Shown here in pieces: positions 23,945 through 40,763 of a stretch of 51,061 bases of DNA (position 1 is its first letter; every line of letters begins with the position of its first letter). The notes beneath the pieces were generated by a model. That model was not told the DNA's origin. It made no database searches and was given only the letters and a program-made list of their open reading frames with translations. Position numbers and translations under genes: made by a program. The stretch comes from Bacteroidales bacterium (lineage in GTDB: Bacteria; Bacteroidota; Bacteroidia; Bacteroidales; Tenuifilaceae), in the NCBI GenBank assembly GCA_025361485.1, contig JANYLA010000124.1:1-51061 (forward strand), written 5' to 3'.

Positions 23945-24017
23945 ATTTCAGGTATAACTGAAAAAGAGTATAATTTAATAATTACACTCTTTCATTTCAT
24001 TTGAATACTTAAAAAAA

Positions 24018-24473
24018 TTATTCCTTTTTCTTATCTGTATTGATACCAAGAGGCAAATACAAGGGACAGAAACCGATTAAACTGGTAAGTGCAAAAATAA
24101 CTGCCAGAATAAGCAGTATTATTTCCAAGGTTCCTGAAATTACATGTGTAAAGTATAACACAACGATAACAACAGCAATCAGCATCCTGATTAGCTTGTC
24201 AATAGCACCCATGTTCTTTTTCATAGTGTTTTGTTTATTTACGATTGGTGATAAAATATCTATAATTAAATAGCCCATTATTGCACCCCAAAGTGTCATC
24301 AACCATGGATTTGATTTAATTGGACATGTCCCTGAAGCACAACCGACCTTATAGTAATAAATAAATCCAGCAAGACCGCCCAATACAAACCCAATAATTT
24401 GAGGGATTGAATTCTTAAATTTACTCATTATTTTCCGAATCGATGGCTCTTTTGTCTCATTTGTATCGCTCAT
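24018..24473 (-). CDS. DUF6132-DUF2892 fusion membrane protein
   Basis: Starting at ATG 24473 the protein has 151 residues. Upstream in-frame starts would overlap the rhodanese gene, whose stop is at 24482. The first half is a DUF6132 hairpin (GFVLGGLAGFIYYYKVGCASGTCPIKSNP...GAIMGYLI), the same fold as the protein at 31819-32058. The second half is a DUF2892 domain (NMGAIDKLIRMLIAV...FCPLYLPLGINT), the membrane domain found in the rhodanese YgaP. The neighbouring gene encodes a rhodanese, so a split YgaP-like sulfane-sulfur module is plausible. Conserved Cys in CxSGTC and FCP may be functional. Confidence 0.8.
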   Translation of the reverse strand: MSDTNETKEPSIRKIMSKFKNSIPQIIGFVLGGLAGFIYYYKVGCASGTCPIKSNPWLMTLWGAIMGYLIIDILSPIVNKQNTMKKNMGAIDKLIRMLIAVVIVVLYFTHVISGTLEIILLILAVIFALTSLIGFCPLYLPLGINTDKKKE

Positions 24474-24481
24474 TGATTTTA

Positions 24482-25195
24482 CTATTTTACTAAATGTGTA
24501 GTGATTTCGTCCTTGGATAAGAATCCTGCATTTGACCAAATAAGTTTTTTGTTCTTATACAGCAAAAGTGTTGGTAAAGCACTTACTTTGAGATCAGAAA
24601 CTAAAGTTTTATTTTGATCAGCATTAATCCGAACTACGGTTACTTTGCTTACCATTTCATTCTTTATCTCTTCGAGCGATGGAGCCATTTTTTTACACGG
24701 TGCGCACCAGTCGGCATATATATCAACTAAAACTAGTTTATCGGTATTTAACAGATTGTTGAATTGTAATTTACTCATTTCATTGCTAGCAGTTGTTTTA
24801 TCGGAAGTTTCGGGTAAACCAGCAGCGTGCCACTTAATCATTCCTCCCGAAAGATTGTACACTTCCTTAAAGCCATTCTCATTCATAACACGTGTTGCAT
24901 AAGCGCTCCTGCTACCGCTTAAACAGTATACAAAAACTGGTTTATTTTTATCTAACTTAGATATGAGGTTACTAAAGTTTTCATCGTTAATATTTATATT
25001 AACTGCATTCTTTATATGACTTTTATTGAACTCATCAGGAGTGCGAACATCAACAATTGGAGCATTCGGTAATTCACTAATCTTTTTCTGAAAATCAGAT
25101 GGAACTAAATTCTGACCAAGAGAATTCTGTGCTAAGAATAGTGTAATCGATAAAATACTTAGAATACTTAATAGAAAAATTTTTCCTTTATTCAT
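24482..25195 (-). CDS. Exported rhodanese-thioredoxin fusion
   Basis: The 237-residue protein has a signal peptide (about residues 1-27), a rhodanese domain with the active Cys C91 in YCLSGSRS, and a thioredoxin domain with C164 and C167 in ADWCAPCKK. Rhodaneses carry persulfide on the active Cys and thioredoxins release or reduce it, so one chain can pass sulfane sulfur internally. It probably acts in the periplasm. It is followed after 8 bases by the DUF2892-containing gene. It follows a 250-base gap after the membrane thioredoxin. Confidence 0.88.
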   Translation of the reverse strand: MNKGKIFLLSILSILSITLFLAQNSLGQNLVPSDFQKKISELPNAPIVDVRTPDEFNKSHIKNAVNININDENFSNLISKLDKNKPVFVYCLSGSRSAYATRVMNENGFKEVYNLSGGMIKWHAAGLPETSDKTTASNEMSKLQFNNLLNTDKLVLVDIYADWCAPCKKMAPSLEEIKNEMVSKVTVVRINADQNKTLVSDLKVSALPTLLLYKNKKLIWSNAGFLSKDEITTHLVK

Positions 25196-25321
25196 CTTAT
25201 TATTATTTAGGTTTAACCTTAACTGTTTTGTTTAATAACACTTTGTAATTGGCTTTTGTTTGCAACACCCGAATGTCTCCAGACTAAATTCCTACTTTAA
25301 AAGTAATTTGAGTTGGAACAC

Positions 25322-25435
25322 TCAGAAAGTAACTTCCAAAAAGTGATATTTAACAGAGAAACGGCTAGGGAAGTTGCCCAGTACAGCAAGAACAATAATT
25401 CGTTTATTAACTAGAAATTTCAACGTTTTTCGCAT
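25322..25435 (-). CDS. Possible 37-residue peptide after the membrane thioredoxin
   Basis: An ATG at 25435, 11 bases after the thioredoxin stop, opens a 37-residue frame that starts MRKTLKFLVNKRIIVLAVLG. It is basic at the N-terminus with a hydrophobic centre and no Cys. Past its TGA the same frame, interrupted by a TGA and a TAG, encodes ETFGCCKQKPITKCY and a stop, a CC-x7-C pattern resembling the three-Cys peptide at 30531-30629. It may be a real small gene, a decayed peptide gene or chance. No promoter was identified. Confidence 0.25.
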   Translation of the reverse strand: MRKTLKFLVNKRIIVLAVLGNFPSRFSVKYHFLEVTF

Positions 25436-25445
25436 TACTTAAGTT

Positions 25446-25862
25446 TTAGGCTTTTGTTATTTGGTTTAATAGAAACTCTTTGCTTTTCCCTCCCACAAAT
25501 CGATTAATTTCTTTGCCATCCTTAAAAAGTATCAGCGTTGGGATGCTTCGAACCTTATATTGCTGCGCTAATGATTGATACTGTTCAATGTTTACTTTGC
25601 CAACATACGATTTACCTGATAATTCTGCTGCAACATCATTTAATACAGGAGCCATCATACGACAAGGTGCACACCATTCAGCCCAGAAATCAACCAACAC
25701 AATCTTATTTTTTGTTTGTTGCTGAAAATTCTTGTCGGTTAGCGTTAGAATATTTTTATGATCGGCTACCAACGGAATACTCTTCATTTTTGCTTTTGCA
25801 TAAACTACAAGTGCTATAAAAGCGACAATTATGATACCGATAATAATTAGTGTTGTTTGCAT
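25446..25862 (-). CDS. Membrane-anchored thioredoxin
   Basis: The 138-residue protein has one N-terminal transmembrane helix (about residues 3-22) and a thioredoxin domain with the canonical WCAPC (C64, C67) and the cis-Pro motif RSIPTLILF. The charge distribution (KAKMK after the helix) is ambiguous for topology. It is a thiol-disulfide reductase acting next to the membrane. It is 54 bases downstream of the thioredoxin-like gene and is probably in the operon driven from 26331. Confidence 0.9.
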   Translation of the reverse strand: MQTTLIIIGIIIVAFIALVVYAKAKMKSIPLVADHKNILTLTDKNFQQQTKNKIVLVDFWAEWCAPCRMMAPVLNDVAAELSGKSYVGKVNIEQYQSLAQQYKVRSIPTLILFKDGKEINRFVGGKSKEFLLNQITKA

Positions 25863-25916
25863 GTTTAACTTTAGTTAGTTATTATGATTTAATTTTGATT
25901 ATACAATTACTTTAAT

Positions 25917-26273
25917 TTAAGCATTAACAGTTTCTGCAAACTCATTATCAAGTATGAAAATTACCTGTTGCTTGCTTTGAATACTAGATGATGCCTTTAC
26001 AACTTTACCATTCTTATAATAGATGGTAAATGGAATTCCCTGAAAACCTCTTACCTCAGGTAGGTTACGGATTATATTTGATTCGGGATTATCGAATTCC
26101 ATATCATAGAATTTAACGTGCTGGTATTCGTTTTCAATATCTTCAGCAATTCCGTAAACTGGAATGCACATGGGCCCCATACGTCCACAGATTACCATTA
26201 CGTTTTCATTCTCATTGATAATTTTAGTGTGGTCAGCAGCCGTTTCGATATGTTTCAAATTTGTGTACAACAT
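25917..26273 (-). CDS. Atypical thioredoxin-like protein with a CGRMGPMC site
   Basis: The 118-residue protein has a thioredoxin fold outline: MVICGRMGPMCIPVYGIAED at the active-site strand and helix, and GFQGIPFTIYYKNGK with the cis-Pro. The usual WCxxC is replaced by C29-GRMGPM-C36, a CX6C spacing. By alignment the resolving Cys (C36) is kept and the first Cys position is Gly; C29 lies seven residues earlier. It is the first gene downstream of a regulated promoter and shares the regulatory region with the divergent Crp/Fnr gene. It may bind rather than reduce its target. Confidence 0.72.
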   Translation of the reverse strand: MLYTNLKHIETAADHTKIINENENVMVICGRMGPMCIPVYGIAEDIENEYQHVKFYDMEFDNPESNIIRNLPEVRGFQGIPFTIYYKNGKVVKASSSIQSKQQVIFILDNEFAETVNA

Positions 26274-26330
26274 CGCTTTATAGTTTTAATTATTATTTTA
26301 CTCAATATTTTCATGTATCCTTTCGAGCAA

Positions 26331-26338
26331 CAAAGTTA
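26331..26338 (-). promoter_or_regulatory. -7 element of the thioredoxin operon
   Basis: On the minus strand this reads TAACTTTG, a full TAnnTTTG match. No good -33 TTTG is visible, which suits an activator-dependent promoter. The conserved upstream element begins 22 bases further upstream. Confidence 0.6.
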
Positions 26339-26360
26339 CCACCACTATAAACCGTATTAA

Positions 26361-26430
26361 TGTTTTATTGAAAGTGGCATAACAACTCCTTCGTTGAAAT
26401 TGAACAACTTTTTTGTTGAATTAGATTAAC
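26361..26430. promoter_or_regulatory. Shared upstream regulatory element, copy A
   Basis: This 70-bp stretch aligns without gaps to 32114-32183 at 55 of 70 positions. It contains TTGAACAA-N5-TTGTTGAA (26400-26420, one mismatch from a palindrome) and a second GTTGAA 22 bases before the one in the right arm. The centre lies about 75 bp upstream of the minus-strand -7 element in both copies. It also overlaps the promoter of the divergent Crp/Fnr gene. I infer it is the binding site of that regulator. Confidence 0.6.
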
Positions 26431-26434
26431 TTTG
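26427..26434 (+). promoter_or_regulatory. -7 element of the Crp/Fnr-type regulator gene
   Basis: TAACTTTG matches TAnnTTTG. The imperfect palindrome 26400-26420 sits just upstream, in the -33/-7 spacer, a position suited to autorepression. The box excludes the TTG at 26432 as a start codon. Confidence 0.55.
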
Positions 26435-26458
26435 TCATCTATTAACGAACTTATCCTA

Positions 26459-27154
26459 ATGAAACCCATAATTGAAACCGATAGCGAATTTATATGTGAC
26501 ATTCAGGCTCCATGTTTTCAGATGCTTTCACCCGAAGAAGTTGAACTTGTAAGAGCAAGTAAAACACAAGTGCTTTTTCGAAAGGGTGATAATCTTACGA
26601 AACAGGGTGCTTATGCATCTTATGTACTTTTTATTATTAAGGGTTTGGCAAAGCAATATATCGAGGGAGATGGAACGAAAAATTATAACCTAAGAATTAT
26701 TAAACCTGGTGAGTTCGTGGGTCTCTCAGCTGTATTTACCAAAAATACATTTAACTATTCATCCGTTGCTATAACCGATTGCCAAGTACTTTTAATTGAA
26801 AATGCTGTCATTGAAAAAGTGGTAAAAAATAACGGGATGTTTGGTTTTACTATTATTAAGAGGTACTGCGAACAGAATGCTAACCTTTTTGATACGGTTC
26901 GCAATATTGTATATAAGCAGATGAATGGCCGCATGGCCGATACACTTCTTTACGTTGATAGTTTTAAAACCGAAAATGAAGAAGTTTTTCAACTACTTTC
27001 TCGCAAAGACATTGCTGATTTTGCCGGAATATCAACCGAAAGTGCTGTGAAATTACTTAAAAGTTTCGAGAAGGATGATTTGATAAAACTTAATGAAAAG
27101 GACATTCAACTATTGAATAAAGAGGCTCTAATTCAGATTGGAATAAGGGGATAA
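26459..27154 (+). CDS. Crp/Fnr-family transcriptional regulator
   Basis: From ATG 26459 the protein has 231 residues: an N-terminal cyclic-nucleotide-binding-type beta-roll (about residues 15-130, LFRKGDNLTKQGAYASYVLFIIKG), a long dimer helix, and a C-terminal winged helix (SRKDIADFAGISTESAVKLLKSFEKDDLI). Two N-terminal Cys (C13, C19) exist, but the four-Cys cluster pattern of FNR is not evident, so the ligand is unknown. It is divergent from the thioredoxin operon and embedded among thiol-redox genes. The 70-bp element in front of two operons is its likely target. Confidence 0.87.
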   Translation: MKPIIETDSEFICDIQAPCFQMLSPEEVELVRASKTQVLFRKGDNLTKQGAYASYVLFIIKGLAKQYIEGDGTKNYNLRIIKPGEFVGLSAVFTKNTFNYSSVAITDCQVLLIENAVIEKVVKNNGMFGFTIIKRYCEQNANLFDTVRNIVYKQMNGRMADTLLYVDSFKTENEEVFQLLSRKDIADFAGISTESAVKLLKSFEKDDLIKLNEKDIQLLNKEALIQIGIRG

Positions 27155-27159
27155 TTCAA

Positions 27160-27202
27160 AAGACAAACCCATTAGATTAATTATAATTGATGGGTTTGTC
27201 TT
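27160..27202 (+). terminator. Terminator between the regulator and DUF302 genes
   Basis: AAGACAAACCCAT (27160-27172) and ATGGGTTTGTCTT (27190-27202) form a 13-bp perfect stem between two converging genes. The T-content beyond the stem is modest, but position and stem strength support a bidirectional terminator. Confidence 0.7.
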
Positions 27203-27220
27203 CTTGTAAAATAATGCTTA

Positions 27221-27628
27221 TCAGAAAGGACCTATTATCGATTTCACAATTTCAAGCGATTCTTTTGTTGCACCACTAATTGCTTCAACAGCAATTGGAG
27301 ATAACCCTGAGATCATTTCTGACATATTTAATAGTGCAACATAAGTTTTCCCATCCTCCTTTTCGTAAACTGAAATACGACAGGGCATCATAACCGAAAC
27401 AATCCTCTCGTCACTTTTTTCGAGCATTTTACCCGAATATTCAGGTTTGCAAATCTCTATTACCTGAACAGGCCTAACTGTTTTTCCGGCTTTGGCCAGC
27501 GATTGCTGTAGATTATGAGTAGCAGGGTTTTGCCATTCTTTAAGAGCAGCAGCAGCAATAAGCTTTTCAACGGTAGTTGTCACATCGAAAGGACTTACAT
27601 GCTCAATGATAATTTGATTTGTGTTCAT
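27221..27628 (-). CDS. DUF302-family protein
   Basis: The 135-residue protein matches the DUF302 pattern. It has an N-terminal SPFDVTTTVEKLIAAAALKEW, a central VIEICKPEYSGKMLEK and SVMMPCRISVYEKEDGKTYVALLN near the end. It has Cys in EIC and MPC. The biochemical role is unknown; DUF302 domains often occur near sulfur or redox genes. No signal peptide is seen, so it is probably cytoplasmic. It is 20 bases after the thioredoxin reductase fusion and is the last gene of that group. Confidence 0.83.
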   Translation of the reverse strand: MNTNQIIIEHVSPFDVTTTVEKLIAAAALKEWQNPATHNLQQSLAKAGKTVRPVQVIEICKPEYSGKMLEKSDERIVSVMMPCRISVYEKEDGKTYVALLNMSEMISGLSPIAVEAISGATKESLEIVKSIIGPF

Positions 27629-27648
27629 GGTCTAAAAGTTACTTGTGA

Positions 27649-28917
27649 TTAACTTAATTCCTTTGCAATGGCAATAGCTGCAATGGTTCCATCGGCAACT
27701 GCCGTGGTAATCTGTCTGTATTTTTTGCTGATAACATCACCCACAGCATATACTCCAGGCATACTGGTAAGCATATCCTCGTTAGTTTTTATATAACCCC
27801 ATTTATCAAGTTCCAGTTTCTCCCTAAATAGGTCGATGTTAGGTTTCATGCCAATAAAAACAAATATACCATCGCTATTAAGTTTAGTAATTTCCTTGGT
27901 TTTAAGGTTTTCTACTTCAGTAATTATTTTATCCCCTTGTCGCACGAAAGACCTTGGCTCATGCTCAAAAAGAGTGCTAATTTTTGGATTTGCAAGCAGT
28001 TTTTCCTGTGCCTGTTTGTTGGCTGTAAATGCATCAAACTGATGAACCATGGTAATCTTGCTTGCAAACTTGCTGATAAAATCTGCCTCCTCAACAGCTG
28101 AATTACCTCCACCGATAACAACAACCTCTTTATCTCCATAATATTTAGCATCGCAAGTCGCACAGTAGGAAATTCCTTTTCCTTTCATTTCTTTTTCTCC
28201 AGAAACACCCATCAAATTAGGTGATGTGCCAGTTGCTATAATGATTTTCTTGGCTTTTACAGTTTCGAACTCATCAATCACCACCTCTTTCTTTTCCAAG
28301 TCAATTCTAGTAACATCAACGGCTACCTTATAAATAGTACCGCATTGCTTTGTTTGCTCCGACATATTGTGCGATAGCATATAGCCCGGCTGTGGCTCAA
28401 TAAAACCGGGATAGTTGGAAACCGAATGAGTATTTGATACTTGTCCTCCAGGTAATGCGATATCAATAAGTACCGTATTAATTTTCGATTGACAAAGGTA
28501 TAAACCAGCCGTAAGTCCACCGGGACCTGCACCAAGAATTAGCACATCAAACTCGGAAATAGTTGGTATTATTTGTGATTTAATCTCCTTAACCCTTTCA
28601 GCAGGAATCATGCTATCGAGCTGATGAATGATATCGCTTCGTTTGATTCCTCCTGACATTGATTTTTCTAATTGAATACCATTGTCAAAAAACAGAAGTG
28701 TTGGAGATGACTTTACCCCAAGCTTCTCTGCTAGCGGTTTATTCTGCTGACGAAACATTTTGAAAAACTTGATATCGCTACCATATAAATTAGCCAATCC
28801 TTCAAATTTTGGTGCTAACGCATCACAGGGAGGACATTCAGTTGAATAAAAATCAAGTACTACCTTGCCACCTGCAAGAACTTCTGATTCGAATTCTGAA
28901 GAAGTTATTTCTTTCAT
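27649..28917 (-). CDS. Thioredoxin-thioredoxin reductase fusion
   Basis: The 422-residue protein has an N-terminal thioredoxin (residues 1-105) with C28 and C31 in the motif STECPPC, so the usual Trp is Glu. A complete low-Mr thioredoxin reductase follows: FAD motif GAGPGGLTAGLY (about 129-140), redox CATC (C252, C255), NADPH motif GGGNSA (about 269) and the C-terminal GDV. Such fusions pair the reductase with its own substrate; here the thioredoxin is N-terminal, opposite to the mycobacterial TrxB-Trx. It lies 60 bases downstream of the radical SAM gene, suggesting it supplies electrons or reduces the product. Confidence 0.92.
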   Translation of the reverse strand: MKEITSSEFESEVLAGGKVVLDFYSTECPPCDALAPKFEGLANLYGSDIKFFKMFRQQNKPLAEKLGVKSSPTLLFFDNGIQLEKSMSGGIKRSDIIHQLDSMIPAERVKEIKSQIIPTISEFDVLILGAGPGGLTAGLYLCQSKINTVLIDIALPGGQVSNTHSVSNYPGFIEPQPGYMLSHNMSEQTKQCGTIYKVAVDVTRIDLEKKEVVIDEFETVKAKKIIIATGTSPNLMGVSGEKEMKGKGISYCATCDAKYYGDKEVVVIGGGNSAVEEADFISKFASKITMVHQFDAFTANKQAQEKLLANPKISTLFEHEPRSFVRQGDKIITEVENLKTKEITKLNSDGIFVFIGMKPNIDLFREKLELDKWGYIKTNEDMLTSMPGVYAVGDVISKKYRQITTAVADGTIAAIAIAKELS

Positions 28918-28977
28918 TTCAAGTTTTGTTAATGTTTTTCAGGTATTTATATTGTAATGTGGTGAAAACTATTCTTA

Positions 28978-30306
28978 TTAAACATTCTCAAAGTATGATG
29001 CAAATCCAAGTTCAAGCAACTCTTTAACAGGTCGACAATCGGAGGAGCATACATTGCCTGTTCTATTTTTAGCAACCGAACCACAACCACCACCACATGC
29101 CAGCTGCATACTGCAGGTGTTACATTCGCTAATAGAGGTGACATCACGGTTTTCCCATGCATTGATCAAATCCTCTTTACGGGAGATTTCAGGGTAAAAT
29201 GTACCTAACGATTCATCAGATTTACCGACAGTTGCTGTGCATGAATAGATATGCCCAGTATAGTCGAATGCCCATTCTGATTTGCAAGCAGGGCAGGAAT
29301 CGAACAACGGATCAGGTAAACTGCCATTCTCCGAAAGAAACTTTGAGATAGAATATGCAGGCTTGTAGAATTCTACAATATATGGGTGTAACTGAATCAA
29401 TTTATATAGCTCTTCGTAAAGTGAAACCCTACTAAAAAGTCTATTGGGAGTGGACTGACAATGATGAAGCTCATAGTTACGCCCAATTTGTGTTTTAAAG
29501 TATGGACTATTTGTCCAACCTTTATCTATAGCAAAACGAGCCAGTTCAGGTAGATTTTCGATATTTTCCTTATCGACAACCATCCTTAAATTAACTGAAA
29601 TGTTATTAGCAATACATGCATCGACACCCTCAATAATTTTATCGAAAGTCTCTGCACCCCCCTTCAGAAATCGGCGCTGATTATGAACGAAAGCTGTCCC
29701 GTCTAGCGTAATCTGTATTTCGCGAACACGTCCCTCTTTCAGAATATCAATGTACTCAACAAGGGTGTAGCCATTGGTAACAAAGCTAACATCAAGTCGA
29801 GCAGCATTCGCTTTATTGATTAGGTAAGAGATCAGTTCTTTTTGTTTCGGAGAGTTTAAAAGTGGTTCACCGCCAAAAACGGTGATATACTTCTTTCTAC
29901 CAGCAAATTCATTTTGGATATATGTGAAAAATGAATCAATAATCTCGTTGGTTAATAAACCTTTCGATGGAGCATATTCATCCTGATAGCAGTATGAACA
30001 GGCAAAATTACAACTGTAATTCGTTACGAAGAAAAGCTGAATCTCATCATCGTTGCGGCTATCGATAAAATCGAGATATTTACTTTGATAAAGTTTTGTT
30101 TCTTTAGCCTCATCAACCCGATAGCCTTTATCAGATATTTCTGCTAGGAAGTTATCATCAGCGATTGGCTCATTATTCCTAATCCTACCTAGTTTTTCAG
30201 CATCGATGGGGTTAACAATATCGGCGTTACCTGTAAGCAGGTTGACGATAAAGAAGTTTTCAGAATCCTTAATCTTTGAGAATATGTTGTGTTTGGAGAA
30301 TATCAT
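28978..30306 (-). CDS. Radical SAM/SPASM peptide-modifying enzyme
   Basis: The 442-residue enzyme has a 70-residue N-terminal segment that looks like a peptide-recognition domain. The radical SAM cluster CNFACSYC (C99, C103, C106) and the SAM-binding FGGEP (about 144-148) follow. The C-terminal SPASM domain has C338, C341, C356, C395, C398, C404, C408, C420 and C424, enough for two auxiliary 4Fe-4S clusters. This layout is that of RiPP maturases (sactipeptide/ranthipeptide/PqqE-like) and sulfatase maturases. No sulfatase is nearby, while a 32-residue Cys peptide is encoded just upstream. I infer thioether or other cross-link formation on that peptide. Confidence 0.88.
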   Translation of the reverse strand: MIFSKHNIFSKIKDSENFFIVNLLTGNADIVNPIDAEKLGRIRNNEPIADDNFLAEISDKGYRVDEAKETKLYQSKYLDFIDSRNDDEIQLFFVTNYSCNFACSYCYQDEYAPSKGLLTNEIIDSFFTYIQNEFAGRKKYITVFGGEPLLNSPKQKELISYLINKANAARLDVSFVTNGYTLVEYIDILKEGRVREIQITLDGTAFVHNQRRFLKGGAETFDKIIEGVDACIANNISVNLRMVVDKENIENLPELARFAIDKGWTNSPYFKTQIGRNYELHHCQSTPNRLFSRVSLYEELYKLIQLHPYIVEFYKPAYSISKFLSENGSLPDPLFDSCPACKSEWAFDYTGHIYSCTATVGKSDESLGTFYPEISRKEDLINAWENRDVTSISECNTCSMQLACGGGCGSVAKNRTGNVCSSDCRPVKELLELGFASYFENV

Positions 30307-30344
30307 GCTTTTAAAGTCAAATGTTAAATTGAAAGTAACTATTC

Positions 30345-30485
30345 ACCACGGAGACACTGAGAACACGGAGCAATTTTATTGAAAAGACAATTTGCTTGCC
30401 CTAAATTTTAGGGTTGACATAACTCATAACTCTCTTTTATATAGAACATTCTGTTTAACCTCTGTGCCCTCTGTGTCTCCGTGGT
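30345..30485. repeat. Intergenic inverted repeat, copy 2 (ACCACGGAGACAC type)
   Basis: Left arm ACCACGGAGACACTGAG (30345-30370) and right arm 30460-30485 (ending GTGTCTCCGTGGT) are about 26-base imperfect reverse complements around an AT-rich centre of about 90 bases. The element separates the peptide gene from the radical SAM gene. It could act as a stem that lowers downstream expression or protects the upstream peptide message. Confidence 0.8.
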
Positions 30486-30530
30486 TTATTTTTATTGCTG
30501 AATAGTTATTATTGGAACAATCTACCAAAA

Positions 30531-30629
30531 CTAATCGTGGCAACCTGCTATCTTCTTCGATGTTTTTGCACAGCATTGTGCAACTTTAGCCACAACTTCA
30601 ATCTTCTTCTTTTTGATTAAACTTCTCAT
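30531..30629 (-). CDS. Short Cys-rich peptide, candidate RiPP precursor
   Basis: An ATG at 30629 opens a 32-residue frame ending at TAG 30531. The N-terminus is basic and amphipathic (MRSLIKKKKIEVVAKVA), and the C-terminal core is QCCAKTSKKIAGCHD with three Cys (residues 19, 20 and 30). An in-frame TAA stands just upstream, so no longer version exists. It starts 20 bases after the thioredoxin lipoprotein stop and is followed by a SPASM radical SAM gene, the usual precursor-maturase order. I do not recognise its family. The reading frame is certain; function is inferred from context. Confidence 0.68.
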   Translation of the reverse strand: MRSLIKKKKIEVVAKVAQCCAKTSKKIAGCHD

Positions 30630-30648
30630 TTTATGTTTGATTTAGGAA

Positions 30649-31110
30649 TTATTTAACGAGTAAAATTTCATTTATTGCCTTTATCAAGGTTTCTTTTGGT
30701 AATGCTCCCATAGCAGTTTGAGGCTTTCCATTAACAGGGATAAAAATTATTGTCGGCAAACTTTGAATGCCCATGTTCTGAGACAATATTTTTTCAGCAT
30801 CGGTATCCACTTTGTATACTACAAGCTTACCGGCGTATTCTTTGGCAATCTCTTCTATTCGAGGTGATAACTGACGACAAGGACCACACCAAGTAGCATA
30901 AAAATCGATAATTACCGGAAGATTACCTTCGAACTTCCACTCCTTATTAACATCGTAGTTAAAAACCTTAAGTTTAAATGTTTCGTTGGTCAATGCAACA
31001 ACAGTACCAGGAGTACTATCATTGTTTTCTGCCTTTACAGGGCTACTTGTATTACAGCTGCTTATTAAAAATGTGAAACCAAGCATACCTAAAATTACAA
31101 ACTGTCTCAT
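30649..31110 (-). CDS. Thioredoxin-family lipoprotein
   Basis: From ATG 31110 the protein has 153 residues with a lipoprotein signal (MRQFVILGMLGFTFLISSC, lipid Cys C19). The domain is a thioredoxin with WCGPC (C75, C78) and the cis-Pro in QSLPTIIFI. An alternative ATG at 31137 would add nine residues before the signal and is less likely. It faces the periplasm or outer surface. It is directly upstream of the Cys-rich peptide and downstream of the methyltransferase in one operon, so it may manage the peptide's cysteines after export. Confidence 0.88.
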   Translation of the reverse strand: MRQFVILGMLGFTFLISSCNTSSPVKAENNDSTPGTVVALTNETFKLKVFNYDVNKEWKFEGNLPVIIDFYATWCGPCRQLSPRIEEIAKEYAGKLVVYKVDTDAEKILSQNMGIQSLPTIIFIPVNGKPQTAMGALPKETLIKAINEILLVK

Positions 31111-31142
31111 GTTATTTATTTTTATAATTATTTTCATCTGGA

Positions 31143-31793
31143 TTAGCTGTTACAGCTACATTTCCCAGTTCTTTTTTTACCAGTAATTGTCCAGCTAGCA
31201 ACCATTATCTTCCCTTTATCGTATGGTGCTGATTCCTCGATAATATCAATGGATGAAAAACCTGCATTTTCGAGTTGCTTTAAGTACTCATCTCGGGTTA
31301 CAGAACCAGCCCAGCATTCGGCAACGGCAACAGGATCTTTTCTGTACTCATCTGGAACTTGTGTGGCTGAATAGATATCACTAATAACAAATCGTCCACC
31401 TTTTTTAAGTATCCTATAAATTTCATTCCAAACGGCTTGTTTGTCATCAGCATGATTAAGTGTACAGTTTGAAATCACTAGGTCTGCTATTTTATCAGGT
31501 AGTTCGATTTTTTCGAGTTCAGATTTTACAAAGCGAACATTAGGCACATTAAATTTTGCTGCATTTTGACGCGCTTTTTCAAGCATTCCATCTGAAATAT
31601 CGATTCCATAAACAAAGCCAGTTTCACCAACCGATTTTGCCATGCGTAGAACATCTGTTCCACGTCCGCTTCCTAGGTCAACGCAAATTTCTCCAATTAA
31701 TGGTTCAGCATAATTGATAGCGCCACCACAGGAAAGGCAACAATCTGTTTGAGCCAATTCACTATACCTAGTATTTATTTCTTTTATTTTCAT
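31143..31793 (-). CDS. ArsM-like SAM methyltransferase
   Basis: From ATG 31793 the protein has 216 residues. The SAM motif is CVDLGSGRGTDVLRMA (37-52). The segments SNCTLNHADDKQAV (C110) and AECWAGSVTRDEYLKQLENAGF (C160) match the two core arsenic-binding Cys regions of ArsM (SNC and ECxxG). The N-terminal CCLSC (C18, C19, C22) could provide the third ligand, and the tail ends in CSC. It lacks about 50 N-terminal residues of classical ArsM. It could methylate arsenite or a thiol; no arsR or arsenite pump is nearby. It lies in the peptide-radical SAM operon. Confidence 0.78.
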   Translation of the reverse strand: MKIKEINTRYSELAQTDCCLSCGGAINYAEPLIGEICVDLGSGRGTDVLRMAKSVGETGFVYGIDISDGMLEKARQNAAKFNVPNVRFVKSELEKIELPDKIADLVISNCTLNHADDKQAVWNEIYRILKKGGRFVISDIYSATQVPDEYRKDPVAVAECWAGSVTRDEYLKQLENAGFSSIDIIEESAPYDKGKIMVASWTITGKKRTGKCSCNS

Positions 31794-31818
31794 CGTTATG
31801 TCAAATATAATCAAATAA

Positions 31819-32058
31819 TTAGCATGTTCTACATGGGCTATTCGTAATTAATAGTCCGATCACAGCCCCCATAATTATGCTAGATAATGGGCTACTAGTA
31901 ATAGCACATGTACCCGAAGTACAGCCTATAAAGTAGTAGTATAAAAAACCTAGGATTCCACCCACTAAAATACCAGATACAGGTTTCCAAAAATACGAAG
32001 ATTGTATCAATTCTCTGAAGGTCTTAGGTTTACTATCAGTTTTGCATGTTTCGCTCAT
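31819..32058 (-). CDS. DUF6132-family small membrane protein
   Basis: The 79-residue protein has two transmembrane helices (about residues 27-46 and 58-72) linked by GCTSGTCAITSSP, the same motif as in the protein at 24018-24473. It ends with CRTC and has a Cys near the N-terminus. The family is common in Bacteroidota beside thioredoxins and rhodaneses; the function is unknown. It is the first gene after a regulated promoter, with a leader of about 20 bases. Confidence 0.82.
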   Translation of the reverse strand: MSETCKTDSKPKTFRELIQSSYFWKPVSGILVGGILGFLYYYFIGCTSGTCAITSSPLSSIIMGAVIGLLITNSPCRTC

Positions 32059-32084
32059 ATAATCTTATTATTATTTTAACCCTG

Positions 32085-32092
32085 CAAAGGTA
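32085..32092 (-). promoter_or_regulatory. -7 element of the peptide/radical SAM operon
   Basis: Read on the minus strand this is TACCTTTG, a full TAnnTTTG match, about 27 bases before the DUF6132 start. As at 26331, the conserved upstream element begins about 21 bases further upstream and no -33 motif is obvious. Confidence 0.6.
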
Positions 32093-32113
32093 TCGCCCTT
32101 AGTAAGATTAATA

Positions 32114-32183
32114 TGTTTTAATGATAGCGGTACAACAACCCTAGAGTTGAATTTGAACAGCTTTTTTATTGAAGTAGATTAAA
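32114..32183. promoter_or_regulatory. Shared upstream regulatory element, copy B
   Basis: It aligns ungapped to 26361-26430 with 15 mismatches in 70. It contains TTGAACAG-N5-TATTGAA at 32153-32173, corresponding to the palindrome in copy A, and keeps the same distance (about 75 bp) from the -7 element. Copy B has lost the plus-strand TAACTTTG present at the end of copy A, so only the minus-strand promoter is served here. Confidence 0.58.
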
Positions 32184-32220
32184 CCATCGTATTATTGAAG
32201 ATTGAATATATCTATATTCA

Positions 32221-32251
32221 AAAAAAACTCACCAGTTTCCTGATGAGTTTT
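32221..32251 (-). terminator. Terminator of the Hdr-like/lyase operon
   Basis: On the minus strand an AAAACTCA ... TGAGTTTT stem, extended by CAG/CTG with one mismatch, is followed by a T-run. It lies 20 bases past the lyase stop. Confidence 0.75.
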
Positions 32252-32270
32252 ACTTATTTGAAAGAGTGAT

Positions 32271-33458
32271 TTACTTAATTTTAGCTAACGCTTGCTCTAA
32301 ATCAGCAATTATATCCTTTAAATCCTCAATACCTACTGAGAATCGAACTAACCCGTCGGTGATTCCTGCTTTCTCACGATTCTCCTTTGACATCTTGGAA
32401 TGAGTCATTGATGCGGGATGTTGAATTAAAGTCTCAATTCCACCCAACGAAACTGCTAACAATGCAAGTTTCACATTATCCATAACAATTTTACCTGCAT
32501 TAAGACCACCTTTTAATCCAAAGCTAATCATCGCACCTGGTCCATCCATCTGCTTTTTAGCCAATTCGTATTGGGGATGAGATTTCAATCCAGGATATTT
32601 TACCCATTCAACTTTTGGATGGTTTTCTAAGTACTCAGCAACCTTAACTGCATTTTCTTGTCCTCTATCCATTCTGATTGAAAGAGTTTTCACACCTCTT
32701 AGAACCATATATGCTTGATGTGGATCCATATTGCAACCCATACCCACCATGGTTGGCCTAACTATTTTGTAAAGCTCTTCATTCTTAGTAACAATAATAC
32801 CTGCAACGATATCAGCATGACCGTTGATAAACTTGGTCATTGAGTGAAAAACCACATCAGCACCAAACTCAATTGGGCGCTGTAAATATGGGCTACAGAA
32901 AGTATTATCAACAACAACAATCAGATTATGCTGATGTGCTATTTCGCAGCATGCTTTAAGGTCTGAAATCTCCATGGTTGGGTTGGTTGGAGTTTCGATA
33001 AAAAGCATCTTGGTGTTAGGCTTAATTGCCTGACGAATTGCATCAAGGTTACCCGTGTTTACATATGAACTCTCAACCCCAAATTTCTTAAAATAGGTTT
33101 CCATAATACCACGTGATGGTCCATAAACCGCATCGGTGCTTACAATATGGTCGCCCGATTTTAGAAATGCCATATATATTGTTGATACAGCGGCCATTCC
33201 AGATGATACGGCAACAGCACCAAATCCGCCTTCGAGAATCGCAATTTGCCTTTCAAGTGCTGATATCGTAGGATTTCCGATACGTGTATACATGTACCCT
33301 TTACTTTCGCCTGCAAAGCAGCGTGCACCTTCGTCAACATTCTCAAACGCAAAGGTTGATGTTTGGTAAATTGGTACGGTAGCGCTTCCCATCGGATCGG
33401 TGCCCATGCCACCATGTATTAAAAGGCTGTTAAAACCTAAATCTTTGTTATGTTCCAT
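32271..33458 (-). CDS. PLP-dependent gamma-family C-S lyase (cystathionine/methionine gamma-lyase-like)
   Basis: The 395-residue protein is a Cys/Met-metabolism PLP enzyme. The PLP lysine is K209 in HSMTKFINGHADIVAG, the phosphate-binding part is SSGMAA (85-90) and the active-site Tyr is Y112. The position of the methionine gamma-lyase Cys116 is Pro here (YGPS), so specificity cannot be assigned: cystathionine gamma-lyase, methionine gamma-lyase, cystathionine gamma-synthase and O-acetylhomoserine sulfhydrylase are all in this family. It begins 2 bases after the Hdr-like membrane subunit, so it is in that operon. Release of sulfide, persulfide or methanethiol is inferred. Confidence 0.88.
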   Translation of the reverse strand: MEHNKDLGFNSLLIHGGMGTDPMGSATVPIYQTSTFAFENVDEGARCFAGESKGYMYTRIGNPTISALERQIAILEGGFGAVAVSSGMAAVSTIYMAFLKSGDHIVSTDAVYGPSRGIMETYFKKFGVESSYVNTGNLDAIRQAIKPNTKMLFIETPTNPTMEISDLKACCEIAHQHNLIVVVDNTFCSPYLQRPIEFGADVVFHSMTKFINGHADIVAGIIVTKNEELYKIVRPTMVGMGCNMDPHQAYMVLRGVKTLSIRMDRGQENAVKVAEYLENHPKVEWVKYPGLKSHPQYELAKKQMDGPGAMISFGLKGGLNAGKIVMDNVKLALLAVSLGGIETLIQHPASMTHSKMSKENREKAGITDGLVRFSVGIEDLKDIIADLEQALAKIK

Positions 33459-33460
33459 TA

Positions 33461-35308
33461 TTAATTATTTATGATGACTGATTTATTTACTTCTTTACTA
33501 ATTAATTTGTTTGCACTTTTTTGAACAGCGCCAAGCATTATCTCTGAGATATCCGCAATCCTTATATCTTCCGATGCTGATTTGAACGTCTTCTTACACA
33601 AAGGACAAGCTGTAGCAACAACATCTGCTTTACCAACTGCTAGTTCACTTAACGTAATCGATGCAATTGTGTTTCGTTGTTCTTGGGTTAGATTAGTTAT
33701 TCCTAAACTTCCCCCGCAGCACAAAGAATTCTCTCTGCTGTTATTCGATTCTATTAGATTCCCTGCTAGACTGAGCAGTTCTCTTGGTTCTTCATAAATT
33801 CCTAAACCCCGACCAAGCTCACAGGGATCGTGGTAGGTAATTTGAATATCAGATTTTTCGAATTGTAGTTTCGATTCCTTTGCTAGCTTGAGTAGATATT
33901 GACTATGGTGATATATTGGTATTTTCAGTTTATAACTATCTGTAAAAACTTTTGCGCAAATAGGGCAGGAGGTAACCAAAACGGTTGCTCCACAGTTTTC
34001 GATTAACTTGATGTTTTTCTCAATCAGCTGCTTCGCTGCATCTTCCTGACCGGTGAGCTGGAGAGGTCTACCACAGCATATACTTCCATCCCTGTCGATA
34101 AAATTGTAATCCACACCAGCCTTTTCAAATAGGGCTAAGGTCGCTTTATAAACCGATGGTGTTAAATGTCCCATGCATCCTGCAAAGTAGGCAACCTTTG
34201 CTTTTCGATATTCGTATCCGTTTATATACTTATAGCTGTTCTCCTGAAATAATTGAATCATCTTCCGTTCGTTGGCTCGGATGGATGCAATATCGATACC
34301 AACAGGGCAAACCTGATCGCATCTATTACAAGCCATGCACGAGTCTACAAGCATTTCAGAAGGCTTATCGTATCGCATCGATTTGATAAAATAAGTCGAT
34401 TGGGTACTTACAATCCCTAAATCTGAACCAAGTTGACATGCATCAATACAAATTCCGCATCGCGAGCATGAGCTAAGCTCAACCTGAGTATAGGTAGAGT
34501 GAATATTCTTTTCGGCAATTCCGTATTTACGGAGGAATATCAAAAGAATTTCGGTGGGAATATGCATATACCTAGTGAAAGGTACAAATACAAAAAACGC
34601 CCCTAAAGCGAATGAGTAAGCCCACCAACTCGCATAGTAGAAGTTGTGTAAGGGAAGGAAGGTCATCATAAATGCACCAATAGAATTCGTAATAAATCCA
34701 CCAGCATCGTAAAGACCTGCTGTAACGCTTTCTGCTAATAACCGTAAAGGAAAAATTAGCCAAAGGGCTGTAAGCGCTAATCTATCGATGGTTGAGTGCT
34801 TGGTAGTATTTTTCATGCCAAGCGGTTTGCTTCGAAAACGCTTAAAATATGCTAACCCGACTCCCGAAAGAACAAATAGCAGCAGCAAATCCATTGTAAA
34901 TGTGAAGAACCTACCATAATCGAGCGACACCAAATTGTGCTCAAAGAATTCGAAAAAAATGGGGATATATGGTGGGTTGATTCTTCCATGAGTGAAGAAC
35001 CTCGTTTCGAGATTCCCCATTATTATCAATAAAAACCAGCCAAAAGCAAGGCTCATATGCATGTACCCGAGTAGAGTGTTTCTTTGAAATACTTTTCGAT
35101 GGAGTAAACTCTCCATGAATACTTCCCAAATTGCTTGGGGTGTTTTAAGGCTGAATAAACCTACAAAAATCTTCTTTTTGTCTTCCCAACTAAATCGCGA
35201 TACCCAGTAAATCCACTTTCCAATAATATAAAAGGCCACGAATATTAACCCAATGGTAAATGGTAATACAAAAGGATGAAAAGGTATCTGAATTGCGTGT
35301 AGATCCAT
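33461..35308 (-). CDS. Membrane HdrED/DsrMK-like FeS subunit
   Basis: The 615-residue protein has about five to six N-terminal transmembrane helices (residues about 15-265), resembling a cytochrome b/NarI-like domain with several His. Two 4Fe-4S motifs follow (CSRCGICIDACQLG and CMACNRCDQVCPVG), then two intact CCG domains (GCMGHL..ICCGRPL..SCPICAK and PCELGRG..LCCGGSLG..ACPLCKK). This is the layout of HdrE-HdrD or DsrM-DsrK fused. It probably exchanges electrons between the quinone pool and the soluble Hdr-like subunits encoded upstream. Confidence 0.87.
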   Translation of the reverse strand: MDLHAIQIPFHPFVLPFTIGLIFVAFYIIGKWIYWVSRFSWEDKKKIFVGLFSLKTPQAIWEVFMESLLHRKVFQRNTLLGYMHMSLAFGWFLLIIMGNLETRFFTHGRINPPYIPIFFEFFEHNLVSLDYGRFFTFTMDLLLLFVLSGVGLAYFKRFRSKPLGMKNTTKHSTIDRLALTALWLIFPLRLLAESVTAGLYDAGGFITNSIGAFMMTFLPLHNFYYASWWAYSFALGAFFVFVPFTRYMHIPTEILLIFLRKYGIAEKNIHSTYTQVELSSCSRCGICIDACQLGSDLGIVSTQSTYFIKSMRYDKPSEMLVDSCMACNRCDQVCPVGIDIASIRANERKMIQLFQENSYKYINGYEYRKAKVAYFAGCMGHLTPSVYKATLALFEKAGVDYNFIDRDGSICCGRPLQLTGQEDAAKQLIEKNIKLIENCGATVLVTSCPICAKVFTDSYKLKIPIYHHSQYLLKLAKESKLQFEKSDIQITYHDPCELGRGLGIYEEPRELLSLAGNLIESNNSRENSLCCGGSLGITNLTQEQRNTIASITLSELAVGKADVVATACPLCKKTFKSASEDIRIADISEIMLGAVQKSANKLISKEVNKSVIINN

Positions 35309-35313
35309 ATCAA

Positions 35314-35643
35314 TTAAATCGTTTGATTTGCCTTGCGTACAAGGCGAATTATATTGCGTGTATTAACATTTCTTGGACAAGCAAGTGTACACTTTCCACA
35401 TAGCATACACTTTTCTGATTCTGCAATTGCTTGTTTACTCTCACCTCTTTTAATTTGATGGCACATCTGCCTGAAACTGAAATTGGTGAAAGAACCTGCA
35501 GTGCAAGTCGCAGTGCAACTTCCACAAGCTATGCAAAGGTTAAAACTAGCATCTTCGAACGAAATGGAATCGGCTAGAGTTAAGCTTGCTTTATCCATAT
35601 CATGGATGTGCGTGGGAAGTGGTGTATATCCAAAGTTTACCAT
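35314..35643 (-). CDS. HdrC-like ferredoxin subunit
   Basis: The 109-residue protein contains two 4Fe-4S motifs: CIACGSCTATC with a following Thr in place of the usual Pro, and CMLCGKCTLACPRN. It has the size and RxMxxxIKRGE helix of HdrC/QmoC N-terminal domains. It likely links the flavoprotein (stop at 35647) to the membrane subunit (start at 35308). All gaps are under 6 bases, indicating one operon. Confidence 0.87.
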   Translation of the reverse strand: MVNFGYTPLPTHIHDMDKASLTLADSISFEDASFNLCIACGSCTATCTAGSFTNFSFRQMCHQIKRGESKQAIAESEKCMLCGKCTLACPRNVNTRNIIRLVRKANQTI

Positions 35644-35646
35644 AAT

Positions 35647-36663
35647 CTACTTAGATGTTAAGTATTTATGCACTTCAAGTGCAGCGGAGTGGGCTGCATT
35701 CACCGAGTCGGTGATATTGTTTGGTCCGGTACAAGCACCAGCCACAAAAACACCTTCGGCTTTGGTATGAGTGGGTTCAAGATGATAATCCTTAACCTGA
35801 ACGAATCCATCATTATTAGGTGATAATTCAAGGTCTTTTAAAATCTTTTCTGTTGATGGTAATGGCGACATCCCAACCATCAAAACAACCATATCCACTG
35901 TCATTTTAAGCGGTTTCGACGAAAGGGTATCCTCAGCTTTTATCAAAACTCGACTACCTTCCATCTCACTTGTTTCAGACAGACGTCCACGGATAAAGTT
36001 TACACCTTTAACCTGAGCCTCTTTATAAAGATCTTCGTAACCAGGACCAAACATTCTTAAATCCATGTAAAAGCAATAAACTTCAGCAGTTGGAATTGCT
36101 TCTTTGATCTCAATGGCTTGTTTTACAGCGGTTACGCAGCAAACTTTTGAGCAGTATGGGCGATTAACCTTCTCGTCGCGACTACCAACACAATGAATAA
36201 TGGCAATCTTTTCGGGTGTTTTGCCAGTAGTTGATTGAGGTTTACCATGATCGGCAAACATCTTTTCTAGTTCAGCAGAGGTTATAACATTGTCGAAGAT
36301 ACCGTAACCATACTCTTCTTTTTTGCTGGCAGGAAAAAGTTCAAAACCAGTTGTAAGCACAATCGCATCCGCCTTTTGGCTCTTACCATTCGCTTCAACT
36401 AGAAAAGAACCATTTTCGCGTTTTATTTGATTGACAGTAGCGACAAGGTTTATTTGTACTTTATCTTTTATTCTTGATGTTAAGGAATCTATTACCTCTG
36501 TAGCATGTCTGCGATTGGGAAATAGCCTATCCCATTTACCTGCATGGCCACCCAATTCAGAATCCTTCTCGTAAAGATTTACTTTGTAACCAAGTTTTTC
36601 GAGTTGGATAGAAGTTTCAAGACCTGCAACTCCTCCTCCTATAACGGCAACGATTTTGTTCAT
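35647..36663 (-). CDS. HdrA/QmoA-like FAD subunit, short form
   Basis: The 338-residue flavoprotein has the FAD motif GGGVAGLETSIQLEKLG (9-25) and the HdrA-type Cys set HCVGSRDEKVNRPYCSKVCC (C158, C171, C175, C176), which binds a 4Fe-4S cluster. It ends with the second FAD contact GVFVAGACTGPNNI. It is much shorter than full HdrA because it lacks the extra ferredoxin domains, and resembles QmoA and the sHdrA of sulfur oxidisers. Whether it bifurcates electrons cannot be told from the sequence. It lies 82 bases after hdrB; the gap has ACTGTCAAC direct repeats. Confidence 0.88.
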   Translation of the reverse strand: MNKIVAVIGGGVAGLETSIQLEKLGYKVNLYEKDSELGGHAGKWDRLFPNRRHATEVIDSLTSRIKDKVQINLVATVNQIKRENGSFLVEANGKSQKADAIVLTTGFELFPASKKEEYGYGIFDNVITSAELEKMFADHGKPQSTTGKTPEKIAIIHCVGSRDEKVNRPYCSKVCCVTAVKQAIEIKEAIPTAEVYCFYMDLRMFGPGYEDLYKEAQVKGVNFIRGRLSETSEMEGSRVLIKAEDTLSSKPLKMTVDMVVLMVGMSPLPSTEKILKDLELSPNNDGFVQVKDYHLEPTHTKAEGVFVAGACTGPNNITDSVNAAHSAALEVHKYLTSK

Positions 36664-36705
36664 AAATTGATTTTATTCTGAAAAAATATTTCTAATTTAT
36701 TTCTT

Positions 36706-36736
36706 GACTGTCAACTGTAAACCGTTAACTGTCAAC
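36706..36736. repeat. Short direct repeat between the HdrB- and HdrA-like genes
   Basis: ACTGTCAAC occurs at 36707-36715 and 36728-36736, separated by TGTAAACCGTTA, forming a compact direct/inverted repeat. It is of the small intergenic type also seen around 38761. No function is evident. Confidence 0.45.
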
Positions 36737-36745
36737 CAGCTTAAA

Positions 36746-37819
36746 CTATTCACAAAACTTCAAATTGTTCGGCAATTCAGGTTTGCCTAAATCTTCGCCG
36801 TTTTTCCCTTTGAATTTCTTTGACTTATCGTACTCAACGCCAATTTTATCGAGTAGCGGTTCGACCGAAACTTGATGCATCTGCATTCCCATTTCCCACG
36901 GGTCAATACCACAAACAAGTCCAGCGGCTTCCTCATAAGTCAGTACAGGTATTCCGTACCCTTCACCACCATATGTTTTACCATCCATCTCGGCAAGAGC
37001 ATACTGCCACCTATCCAAGAAATAGTTGCAACCGGGGCAGTTTGTAATAATGAAATCAGGTTTAAACGGCTCCATCGATTCAAACTTCTTTTTTGATGCT
37101 GCAATGGAGTAACCTCTATTTGCTTTAACAAGATATTGCCTAAAACCAAAACCGCAGCAATGTCTTCGTTCGGGGTAATCGATAACTTCACCACCCCATG
37201 CTTCAACCAAACCTGCTAGAACATAAGGATATTCAGCTCCACCAATTCCTTTTGCAGGGAACATTTTGGCATAATGGCAACCAATATGGTCAACTACCTT
37301 TAATGGTTTCCCTGTATGTTTATTGATAAACTTGTATTTTGCTTTTGCAGCTATCTCGTTTCTGAATTTATAGATTACATCGCTAGTGTGAGCGAGGTTT
37401 TTAGGAATCTCGAACTCTCTTCCGGTGGCTTCCTTTAAGAACTTGCGGGCTTTCTCCTTTTCTTCAGGAAAATGATGCCAAGTATCAAAAATCTCGGTAT
37501 ATATTCCGAATGATGTAACACACGATGGATTGTAGTTTTCGTATCCCGAATCTTTCATCAACGAGAAATTACGAGCTACAACGGTTTGAAGCGTATCAAG
37601 AGGAACAACCTCGGTATGATATCCAATTCCCGTGCACGTTGTATGGTGTTCGCTTTCATAAACATCTTTTCCAAGCACATCACGCATCACCCTTAAGTAT
37701 GTATTCTCACTACCGGGCCAAATATTTTGGCGAATACAGCTGCGAACATAGTAGAACTTATCGTCGGCAATCTCCTTTTGGTAATCGCTCCAAATTTTGC
37801 GTTTTCCCTCAAACTTCAT
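36746..37819 (-). CDS. HdrB-like subunit with one degenerate CCG domain
   Basis: The 357-residue protein is related to heterodisulfide reductase subunit B, which carries two CCG motifs that hold noncubane 4Fe-4S clusters. The second CCG is intact (GCHYAK C181, HCCGFGF C221-C222, NCPGC C261/C264). The first keeps only single Cys (C28, C62 in TCTGIG, C100 in SCVTSF), where HdrB has CC and CxxC. So probably only one noncubane cluster forms. The start overlaps the HdrC-like stop by four bases. The substrate is unknown; a thiol/disulfide or sulfur carrier is the family-based guess. Confidence 0.84.
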   Translation of the reverse strand: MKFEGKRKIWSDYQKEIADDKFYYVRSCIRQNIWPGSENTYLRVMRDVLGKDVYESEHHTTCTGIGYHTEVVPLDTLQTVVARNFSLMKDSGYENYNPSCVTSFGIYTEIFDTWHHFPEEKEKARKFLKEATGREFEIPKNLAHTSDVIYKFRNEIAAKAKYKFINKHTGKPLKVVDHIGCHYAKMFPAKGIGGAEYPYVLAGLVEAWGGEVIDYPERRHCCGFGFRQYLVKANRGYSIAASKKKFESMEPFKPDFIITNCPGCNYFLDRWQYALAEMDGKTYGGEGYGIPVLTYEEAAGLVCGIDPWEMGMQMHQVSVEPLLDKIGVEYDKSKKFKGKNGEDLGKPELPNNLKFCE

Positions 37820-40586: not shown

Positions 40587-40763
40587 ACCACGGAGACACG
40601 GAGAACACAGAGAATAAAAGAGAGCAAAAGTTTAGATTATTCGTTTTCGATAGAGATATTTGCTCAATAAAATGAATTTGTTTTGGTTCATATTAAAGAG
40701 CTAATCAAGGTTATTATCTGTGGTCAATGAAACAAATCTCTGTGAACTCCGTGCCTCCGTGGT
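40587..40763. repeat. Intergenic inverted repeat, copy 3 (ACCACGGAGACAC type)
   Basis: Left arm ACCACGGAGACACGGAG (40587-40612) and right arm 40738-40763 (ending GCCTCCGTGGT) are about 26-base imperfect reverse complements flanking a 125-base AT-rich centre. It has the same design and nearly the same arms as the element at 30345. It fills the gap between ssb and the zinc-finger gene. Confidence 0.82.

Follow-up and report, generated by a model that had tools for sequence, protein, structure and literature searches.

Gene content of the locus

We analysed a 51,061-nucleotide stretch of DNA from a Bacteroidales bacterium of the Tenuifilaceae (contig JANYLA010000124.1, positions 1 to 51,061; the window below) for a candidate ribosomally synthesized and post-translationally modified peptide (RiPP) system, formed by a 32-codon gene and a radical S-adenosylmethionine (SAM) enzyme of the SPASM type. 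The peptide gene (30531-30629, minus strand, 32 codons plus stop) is an open reading frame (ORF) conserved in relatives. Its putative leader MRSLIKKKKIEVVAKV (residues 1-16; 30582-30629, minus strand) is assigned on the family start consensus MKSLIKKK, and its C-terminal core AQCCAKTSKKIAGCHD (residues 17-32; 30534-30581, minus strand) on conservation in 63 aligned relatives together with synonymous codon variation. The radical SAM/SPASM enzyme, a putative peptide maturase with a PF04055 domain and an N-terminal recognition-like region, is encoded at 28978-30306 (minus strand). A short ArsM-type SAM methyltransferase, with a sequence match to 4kw7 and a fold match to 4fr0, lies at 31143-31796 (minus strand; the ORF spans 31143-31814, and homologues favour the ATG at 31796), and a thioredoxin domain fused to thioredoxin reductase (Trx-TrxR), recognized in Pfam and NCBIfam family scans, at 27649-28917 (minus strand). 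Read along the minus strand, the order is DUF6132, methyltransferase, thioredoxin lipoprotein, peptide, radical SAM, Trx-TrxR and DUF302. We lean towards reading these genes as a RiPP-type cassette in which the radical SAM enzyme would modify the peptide core and the product would serve as an intracellular cofactor or carrier.

An earlier note on this DNA had listed peptide, radical SAM, thioredoxin lipoprotein, ArsM-like, DUF6132 and Trx-TrxR reading frames, all of which are present. It also placed the peptide just upstream of the enzyme gene; the peptide does lie upstream, but 224 bases holding an inverted-repeat element (30336-30508, no strand assigned) separate the two genes. This element sits inside the operon, and a 24-base part of it reappears 10 kb away at 40589-40612 with two mismatches. 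The window's genome carries a single copy of the peptide gene and a single copy of the enzyme gene, the second enzyme match reaching just E 2.9e-5 at 27% identity.

Conservation of the peptide

Among named genomes of bacteria and archaea, a scan recovered 104 related loci. The best 80 (enzyme identity 52-87%) were kept, and locus counts rest on these 80 (L032-L111) alone, L003-L031 coming mostly from the same genomes. The exact motif CCAK-x6-GCHD-stop closes the peptide in 74 of the 80 loci. Four of the others, L039, L041 and the pair L042 and L091 from one genome, have a full-length peptide elsewhere in the genome (E 1.2e-16, 1.3e-16 and 6.6e-16). The contig ends 48 and 113 bases before the enzyme match in L081 and L109, whose genomes gave no good peptide match (none, and a best E of 0.054).

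For the peptide alignment (63 rows), loci without the exact motif, cut peptides and near-copies were excluded. Because CCAK-x6-GCHD was the criterion for picking rows, the invariance of C19, C20, A21, K22, G29, C30, H31 and D32 is built in; A17, Q18 and S24 played no part in the choice. Every row has M1 and A17, and at least 90% of the rows keep L4, K7, Q18 and S24. The middle part of the leader differs in length among relatives, and a few relatives carry extra leader cysteines. The 86 distinct core DNA sequences use several codons for each invariant residue, as at Ala17 (GCA 35, GCT 21, GCC 18, GCG 12). The earlier note had named two findings that would refute its reading, the absence of such a peptide upstream of enzyme homologues and a lack of codon conservation. 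Neither was obtained: enzyme homologues have the CC-x9-C peptide upstream, and its amino acids are kept while codons vary synonymously. The reading of the peptide as substrate is thus supported.

Translation signals were also compared. All 17 non-Bacteroidota loci have a Shine-Dalgarno-like sequence ahead of the peptide start, and 14 of the 17 satisfy a stricter pattern; among 8500 random 20-mers from the same loci the corresponding rates are 9.1% and 3.7%. Bacteroidota rarely use Shine-Dalgarno sites, and the count of 0 in the 56 other loci is as expected because this phylum makes little use of them.

Judged by its sequence record, the 32-residue frame is a conserved gene. A frame arisen by chance, or a regulatory leader upstream that yields no gene product, would fit its shortness and its lack of any Pfam or NCBIfam match above cut-off. 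We regard this as extremely improbable, since amino acids are kept through synonymous codon change, peptide copies lie away from the enzyme gene in three genomes, and the Shine-Dalgarno-like sites in other phyla greatly exceed the random background. Two family assignments were tried and rejected: the BTK motif of Pfam (window peptide only; E 0.023, 15.0 of the 24 bits needed) and lachnocin (E 0.1, in one of 63 members). The exact motif had no match in a viral contig set from which records near the window's genome may be excluded.

Structure and family of the radical SAM enzyme

The enzyme has the CxxxCxxC motif and SPASM cysteines of a SPASM radical SAM protein. The earlier note had read a full set of cysteine ligands from the single sequence, and the alignment of 55 of the 77 usable enzymes agrees: C99, C103, C106, C338, C356, C395, C398, C404, C408 and C424 are invariant and C341 is at least 90% conserved. 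An AlphaFold model (predicted local distance difference test, pLDDT, 92.0; predicted template modelling score, pTM, 0.89) had 5wgg as its best match among the solved structures listed (Foldseek E 5.0e-18). VIA-align superposed the two with Z 27.3 and a root-mean-square deviation (rmsd) of 3.6 over 402 residues at 20% identity, covering model residues 4-442 and thus the N-terminal region. The study behind 5wgg dealt with how thioethers form in peptides, and we take the structure to be CteB. On this model, the enzyme resembles the thioether-forming peptide maturase CteB, which is described in the consulted part of PMC8326336 as forming thioethers in SCIFF peptides and as having an N-terminal recognition domain.

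The likeness to SCIFF/CteB extends from the nearest solved structure to the SPASM domain, the N-terminal recognition domain and a short cysteine-containing precursor (PMC8326336, in the same part). It ends at the precursor itself, since SCIFF has six cysteines in about 45 residues and the peptide here has three conserved ones and a fixed C-terminal GCHD. The enzyme scores 78 of the 425 bits required by the SCIFF maturase family TIGR03974, and the cassette, unlike that of SCIFF, includes a Trx-TrxR fusion and a methyltransferase of ArsM type. In NCBIfam the enzyme scores best with CefB (NF038107; 153 of 600 bits), TIGR04463 (142.8 of 525) and PapB (NF047865; 123.2 of 340), all far under their cut-offs, and by this measure it lies outside these families.

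The locus shows the broad mark of a radical SAM RiPP, linkage between the gene of a short, conserved precursor and that of a modifying enzyme. The peptide is very probably the substrate of the radical SAM enzyme, and it is a reasonable expectation that the modified peptide contains a thioether.

Co-inheritance and spread of the cassette

Co-inheritance was assessed in 393 genomes of the same order (peptide E <= 1e-9, enzyme E <= 1e-40, methyltransferase profile E <= 1e-45), leaving out partial peptide matches in G216, G239 and G248 (E 0.003-0.008) and a radical SAM match in G259 (29% identity, E 4.1e-41). The peptide occurs in 49 genomes, the enzyme in 49 and the short methyltransferase in 48; all three occur together in 48, a co-occurrence uncorrected for kinship. 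Methyltransferase profile scores split among the 100 matched genomes, 48 scoring at least 262.9 bits and the rest at most 180.0, and those 48 are exactly the genomes with both peptide and enzyme. The sole enzyme-only genome (G263) is 79% complete and has its enzyme piece at a contig end; the sole peptide-only genome, G037, gave no enzyme match at E <= 1e-10.

Beyond the order, 6 of 395 genomes in a phylum sample have the peptide at E <= 1e-4, the window's own included, and in the other five the methyltransferase and enzyme adjoin it. A methyltransferase search of ten genomes (nine hosts of Myxococcota, deltaproteobacterial or spirochaete loci, and G037) found a match in all, the best reaching at least 297 bits in the nine hosts and 163 bits in G037. 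By this pattern of occurrence the cassette is patchy, yet moves as a unit.

The cassette was found in four phyla: Bacteroidota, Ignavibacteriota, Spirochaetota and Myxococcota. In a tree of the 55 enzymes the Myxococcota rows fall on a single branch (100/97), and supported branches require at least two changes for each of Bacteroidota, Spirochaetota and Ignavibacteriota. The tree is consistent with an old family with some transfer, a pattern that bins or paralogues could also give.

Gene order was followed with tblastn, ORF picking having given antisense frames in GC-rich Myxococcota loci. At 68 of the 80 loci the genes run in the order methyltransferase, peptide, radical SAM, Trx-TrxR. The Trx-TrxR fusion is found in 77 of 80 (aligned over more than 380 residues in 75), and at one locus without it, L059, the contig ends 40 bases past the enzyme. 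The methyltransferase is found in 71 of 80; of the nine loci without it, five have under 810 bases of contig left upstream of the enzyme, and the other four are the group with a relocated peptide. The nearest ORF upstream of the peptide is the methyltransferase in 53 of 74 loci, against the thioredoxin lipoprotein in 10 of 74. These comparisons establish, at the level of gene arrangement, that methyltransferase, peptide, radical SAM enzyme and Trx-TrxR belong together. The earlier note had seen a host response-type operon; its genes are there, but the methyltransferase and Trx-TrxR are near-constant members of the cassette and not mere nearby stress genes.

An ArsM-type methyltransferase and a possible arsenic role

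The methyltransferase matches the arsenic methyltransferase 4kw7 in sequence (E 1.4e-25), and its model (pLDDT 90.0) matches 4fr0, among the matches listed, with Z 24.4 and an rmsd of 2.2 over 195 residues at 31% identity. In 42 aligned rows C23, C111 and C161 are invariant, and they align with residues 72, 174 and 224 of algal ArsM 4kw7, which bind As(III) according to the part of PMC12608789 consulted. The protein thus shares with ArsM both the fold and the three As(III)-binding cysteines. It differs in being short (about 215 residues), in forming a score group of its own and in its position away from listed Acr3 places; it reaches 193.2 of the 263 bits required by NF008823. It is an ArsM relative that forms a separate short subfamily.

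These features bear on an arsenic version of the function, in which the three-thiol peptide, modified or not, would carry As(III) to its dedicated methyltransferase and Trx-TrxR would give electrons. Other ArsM enzymes have a role for glutathione, which the peptide would take here. Besides the invariant cysteines, the Acr3 pump is commoner in cassette genomes (38 of 48 against 158 of 345 others, uncorrected for kinship and habitat), and the same source, in the part consulted, reports that a Trx/TrxR/NADPH system increases human AS3MT activity (PMC12608789). Canonical (longer) ArsM occurs in 15 of 48 cassette genomes and 52 of 345 others, uncorrected for kinship. Against this version, 10 of the 48 cassette genomes lack Acr3, the genome of the window itself gave no match to it at E <= 1e-60, and the radical SAM enzyme is left unexplained. 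Of the 38 cassette genomes that have Acr3, 30 are covered by the Acr3 matches listed; among these matches, no short methyltransferase lies within 5 kb of an Acr3 place (0 of 49), whereas 34 of 69 canonical ArsM relatives do; the short form is not part of an arsenic operon by this measure. We consider the arsenic version unlikely.

Accessory genes and neighbours

Flanks of up to 4 kb were examined for neighbours, and neighbour-cluster counts include the window twice. Accessory genes in the window are the thioredoxin lipoprotein (30649-31137, minus strand; Pfam and NCBIfam family scans), a small DUF6132 protein (31819-32058, minus strand; Pfam, seen in 27 of 80 loci) and a DUF302 protein (27221-27628, minus strand; Pfam, 34 of 80); a DUF1847 accessory clusters in 19 loci. 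A Crp/FNR-type regulator recognized by Pfam stands beside the cassette (26432-27154, plus strand), clusters in 13 loci with the window included, and may regulate it. Next to this regulator, a second redox cluster occupies 24018-26273, with a rhodanese-thioredoxin fusion, a DUF6132/YgaP-TM protein and two further thioredoxin-like proteins. Directly upstream of the cassette, 32271-37819 holds what we take to be a cystathionine gamma-lyase-like gene and heterodisulfide-reductase (Hdr)-like cysteine-rich iron-sulfur/FAD genes. In 18 loci a protein of about 145 residues with an IS1595 transposase zinc-ribbon domain is encoded divergently upstream of the cassette (e.g. L080:2285-2719), and it may be a domesticated regulator.

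A terminator-like hairpin upstream of the cassette (32224-32251, minus strand; consensus match only) is a possible operon boundary, although counts of terminator-like sites (5 found, 4.0 expected by chance in the scanned stretch) and of promoter-like sites (26 found, 22.6 expected) are uninformative. An Rfam scan of 24000-38000 gave no match above the gathering score.

A second set of neighbours bears on a reactive-sulfur version, in which the peptide would carry or sense persulfide or polysulfide in anoxic habitats rich in sulfide. Rhodanese-like proteins would load it and Trx-TrxR would unload it, and the methyltransferase would methylate sulfide or thiols. Rhodanese-Trx fusion, YgaP-TM and DsrE genes are found nearby and TauE in 2 of 150 neighbour proteins, to which we would add presumed SQR-like, OsmC-like, YedE-like, cystathionine gamma-lyase-like and Hdr-like genes. 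No sulfur-type neighbour is constant across loci, however; the SQR-like protein falls just below the Pfam cut-off for PF07992 (25.1 of 26.1), and the version does not require the As-binding cysteines of the methyltransferase. We judge it, like the arsenic version, to be unlikely. No arsenic family is among the best 25 of 168 Pfam and the best 25 of 297 NCBIfam families for 150 neighbour proteins picked from 213.

Export was considered for a further alternative, in which the methyltransferase tailors a cross-linked small RiPP that leaves the cell to act as a signal or an antimicrobial. In genomes where the enzyme gene is not next to the peptide, the methyltransferase still is, and S-methylation of RiPP cysteines is known, if rare, from PtyS, in the portion of PMC11285071 consulted. 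The core is almost invariant over four phyla, however, and no exporter- or protease-like cluster is found among those present in at least 5 loci; an OPT transporter gene follows the cassette in L108, with a similar gene in L109, but is not general. Release of such a product is quite improbable in our estimate, and a bacteriocin was set aside on the same two grounds, the near-invariant core and the lack of such clusters. The wide spread of SCIFF in Clostridia is given as an argument against an antimicrobial role in the part of the review PMC8326336 consulted, and by analogy the argument would apply to the CC...C peptide too.

Discussion

Returning to the reading of an intracellular, radical-SAM-modified peptide, we propose that the conserved basic start MKSLIKKK would be bound by the N-terminal recognition-like region of the enzyme, which would then modify the near-invariant core AQCCAK-x-S-x4-GCHD. 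The likeliest change would be a non-alpha thioether from Cys19 or Cys20 to a nearby residue; a bond from Cys20 to Ser24, which would have C-x3-S spacing, is no more than a guess. The thiols left free, possibly together with His31 and the C-terminal Asp32, would make up a site that binds a soft element or does redox chemistry. The methyltransferase would methylate the peptide or a soft element held on it (arsenite, another metalloid, sulfide or sulfane sulfur), and the Trx-TrxR fusion would keep the peptide thiols reduced with NADPH and so recycle the peptide. The product would not be a bacteriocin but would stay inside the cell, working as a cofactor or carrier. For this last part, a thiol, metalloid or sulfur cofactor inside the cell, we put the chances somewhat short of even. 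The most specific form of the proposal is a ribosomally made thiol cofactor found in four phyla, in which the modified tri-cysteine peptide is the dedicated carrier for ArsM-type methylation of arsenite, another soft metalloid or sulfur and is recycled by its own Trx-TrxR; this we offer as a tentative and rather doubtful possibility.

Several observations weigh against this reading. The enzyme is below cut-off in every NCBIfam family among the best 25 of 72, and the PapB precursor motif C-x3-D/E (PMC9413430, in the part consulted) is absent, the core here having C-A-K-x-S. One of the 86 cores has Ala instead of Ser at residue 24, which counts against the guessed C-x3-S thioether. L104 and L109 have 4 kb of downstream sequence and no Trx-TrxR fusion in it. 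With the peptide in 49 of the order's 393 genomes and in 6 of 395 in the phylum sample, the cassette is patchy in occurrence and therefore not essential to the group. In the three genomes whose peptide lies away from the enzyme (L124-L126), it still follows the methyltransferase, which may therefore be the closer partner, and the peptide's tie to methylation is about as close as its tie to the radical SAM enzyme. In G037 the peptide stands beside a different methyltransferase, and neither the radical SAM enzyme of the cassette nor the short ArsM-type gene was found.

Two loci show the peptide in other company. At L127, in G037, the motif (at 6296) comes directly after the different SAM methyltransferase and near a DsrE-like gene; the only ArsM relative of this genome is a longer one. 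At L128, in G311, a second peptide copy (motif at 6681) lies between YgaP-TM-like and DUF302 genes, and the 13 kb examined contain no radical SAM enzyme.

Pyrroloquinoline quinone (PQQ) and mycofactocin are peptide-derived cofactors made with a SPASM radical SAM enzyme from a core that hardly varies. Compared with them, the peptide described here is alike in its nearly constant core and its SPASM enzyme and differs in its residues and partner genes. By analogy with such cofactors, the constancy of the core over Bacteroidota, Ignavibacteriota, Spirochaetota and Myxococcota suggests one product and one chemistry.

No publication on the peptide was among those listed from the literature searched, which includes few subscription journals, and prior notice is possible. 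The strings AQCCAK, QCCAK and CCAKTS are absent from the literature matches listed, where GCHD appears only in other meanings, and the word thioredoxin is absent from the main text of a survey of Bacteroidales RiPPs (PMC10352776).

A direct test of the proposed reading needs just four genes. The peptide and its cassette may point to an undescribed peptide-derived molecule for reactive thiol, sulfur or metalloid chemistry in cells, and if the reading is true it would join SPASM radical SAM peptide chemistry, ArsM-type methylation and thioredoxin recycling, fields that are seldom linked.

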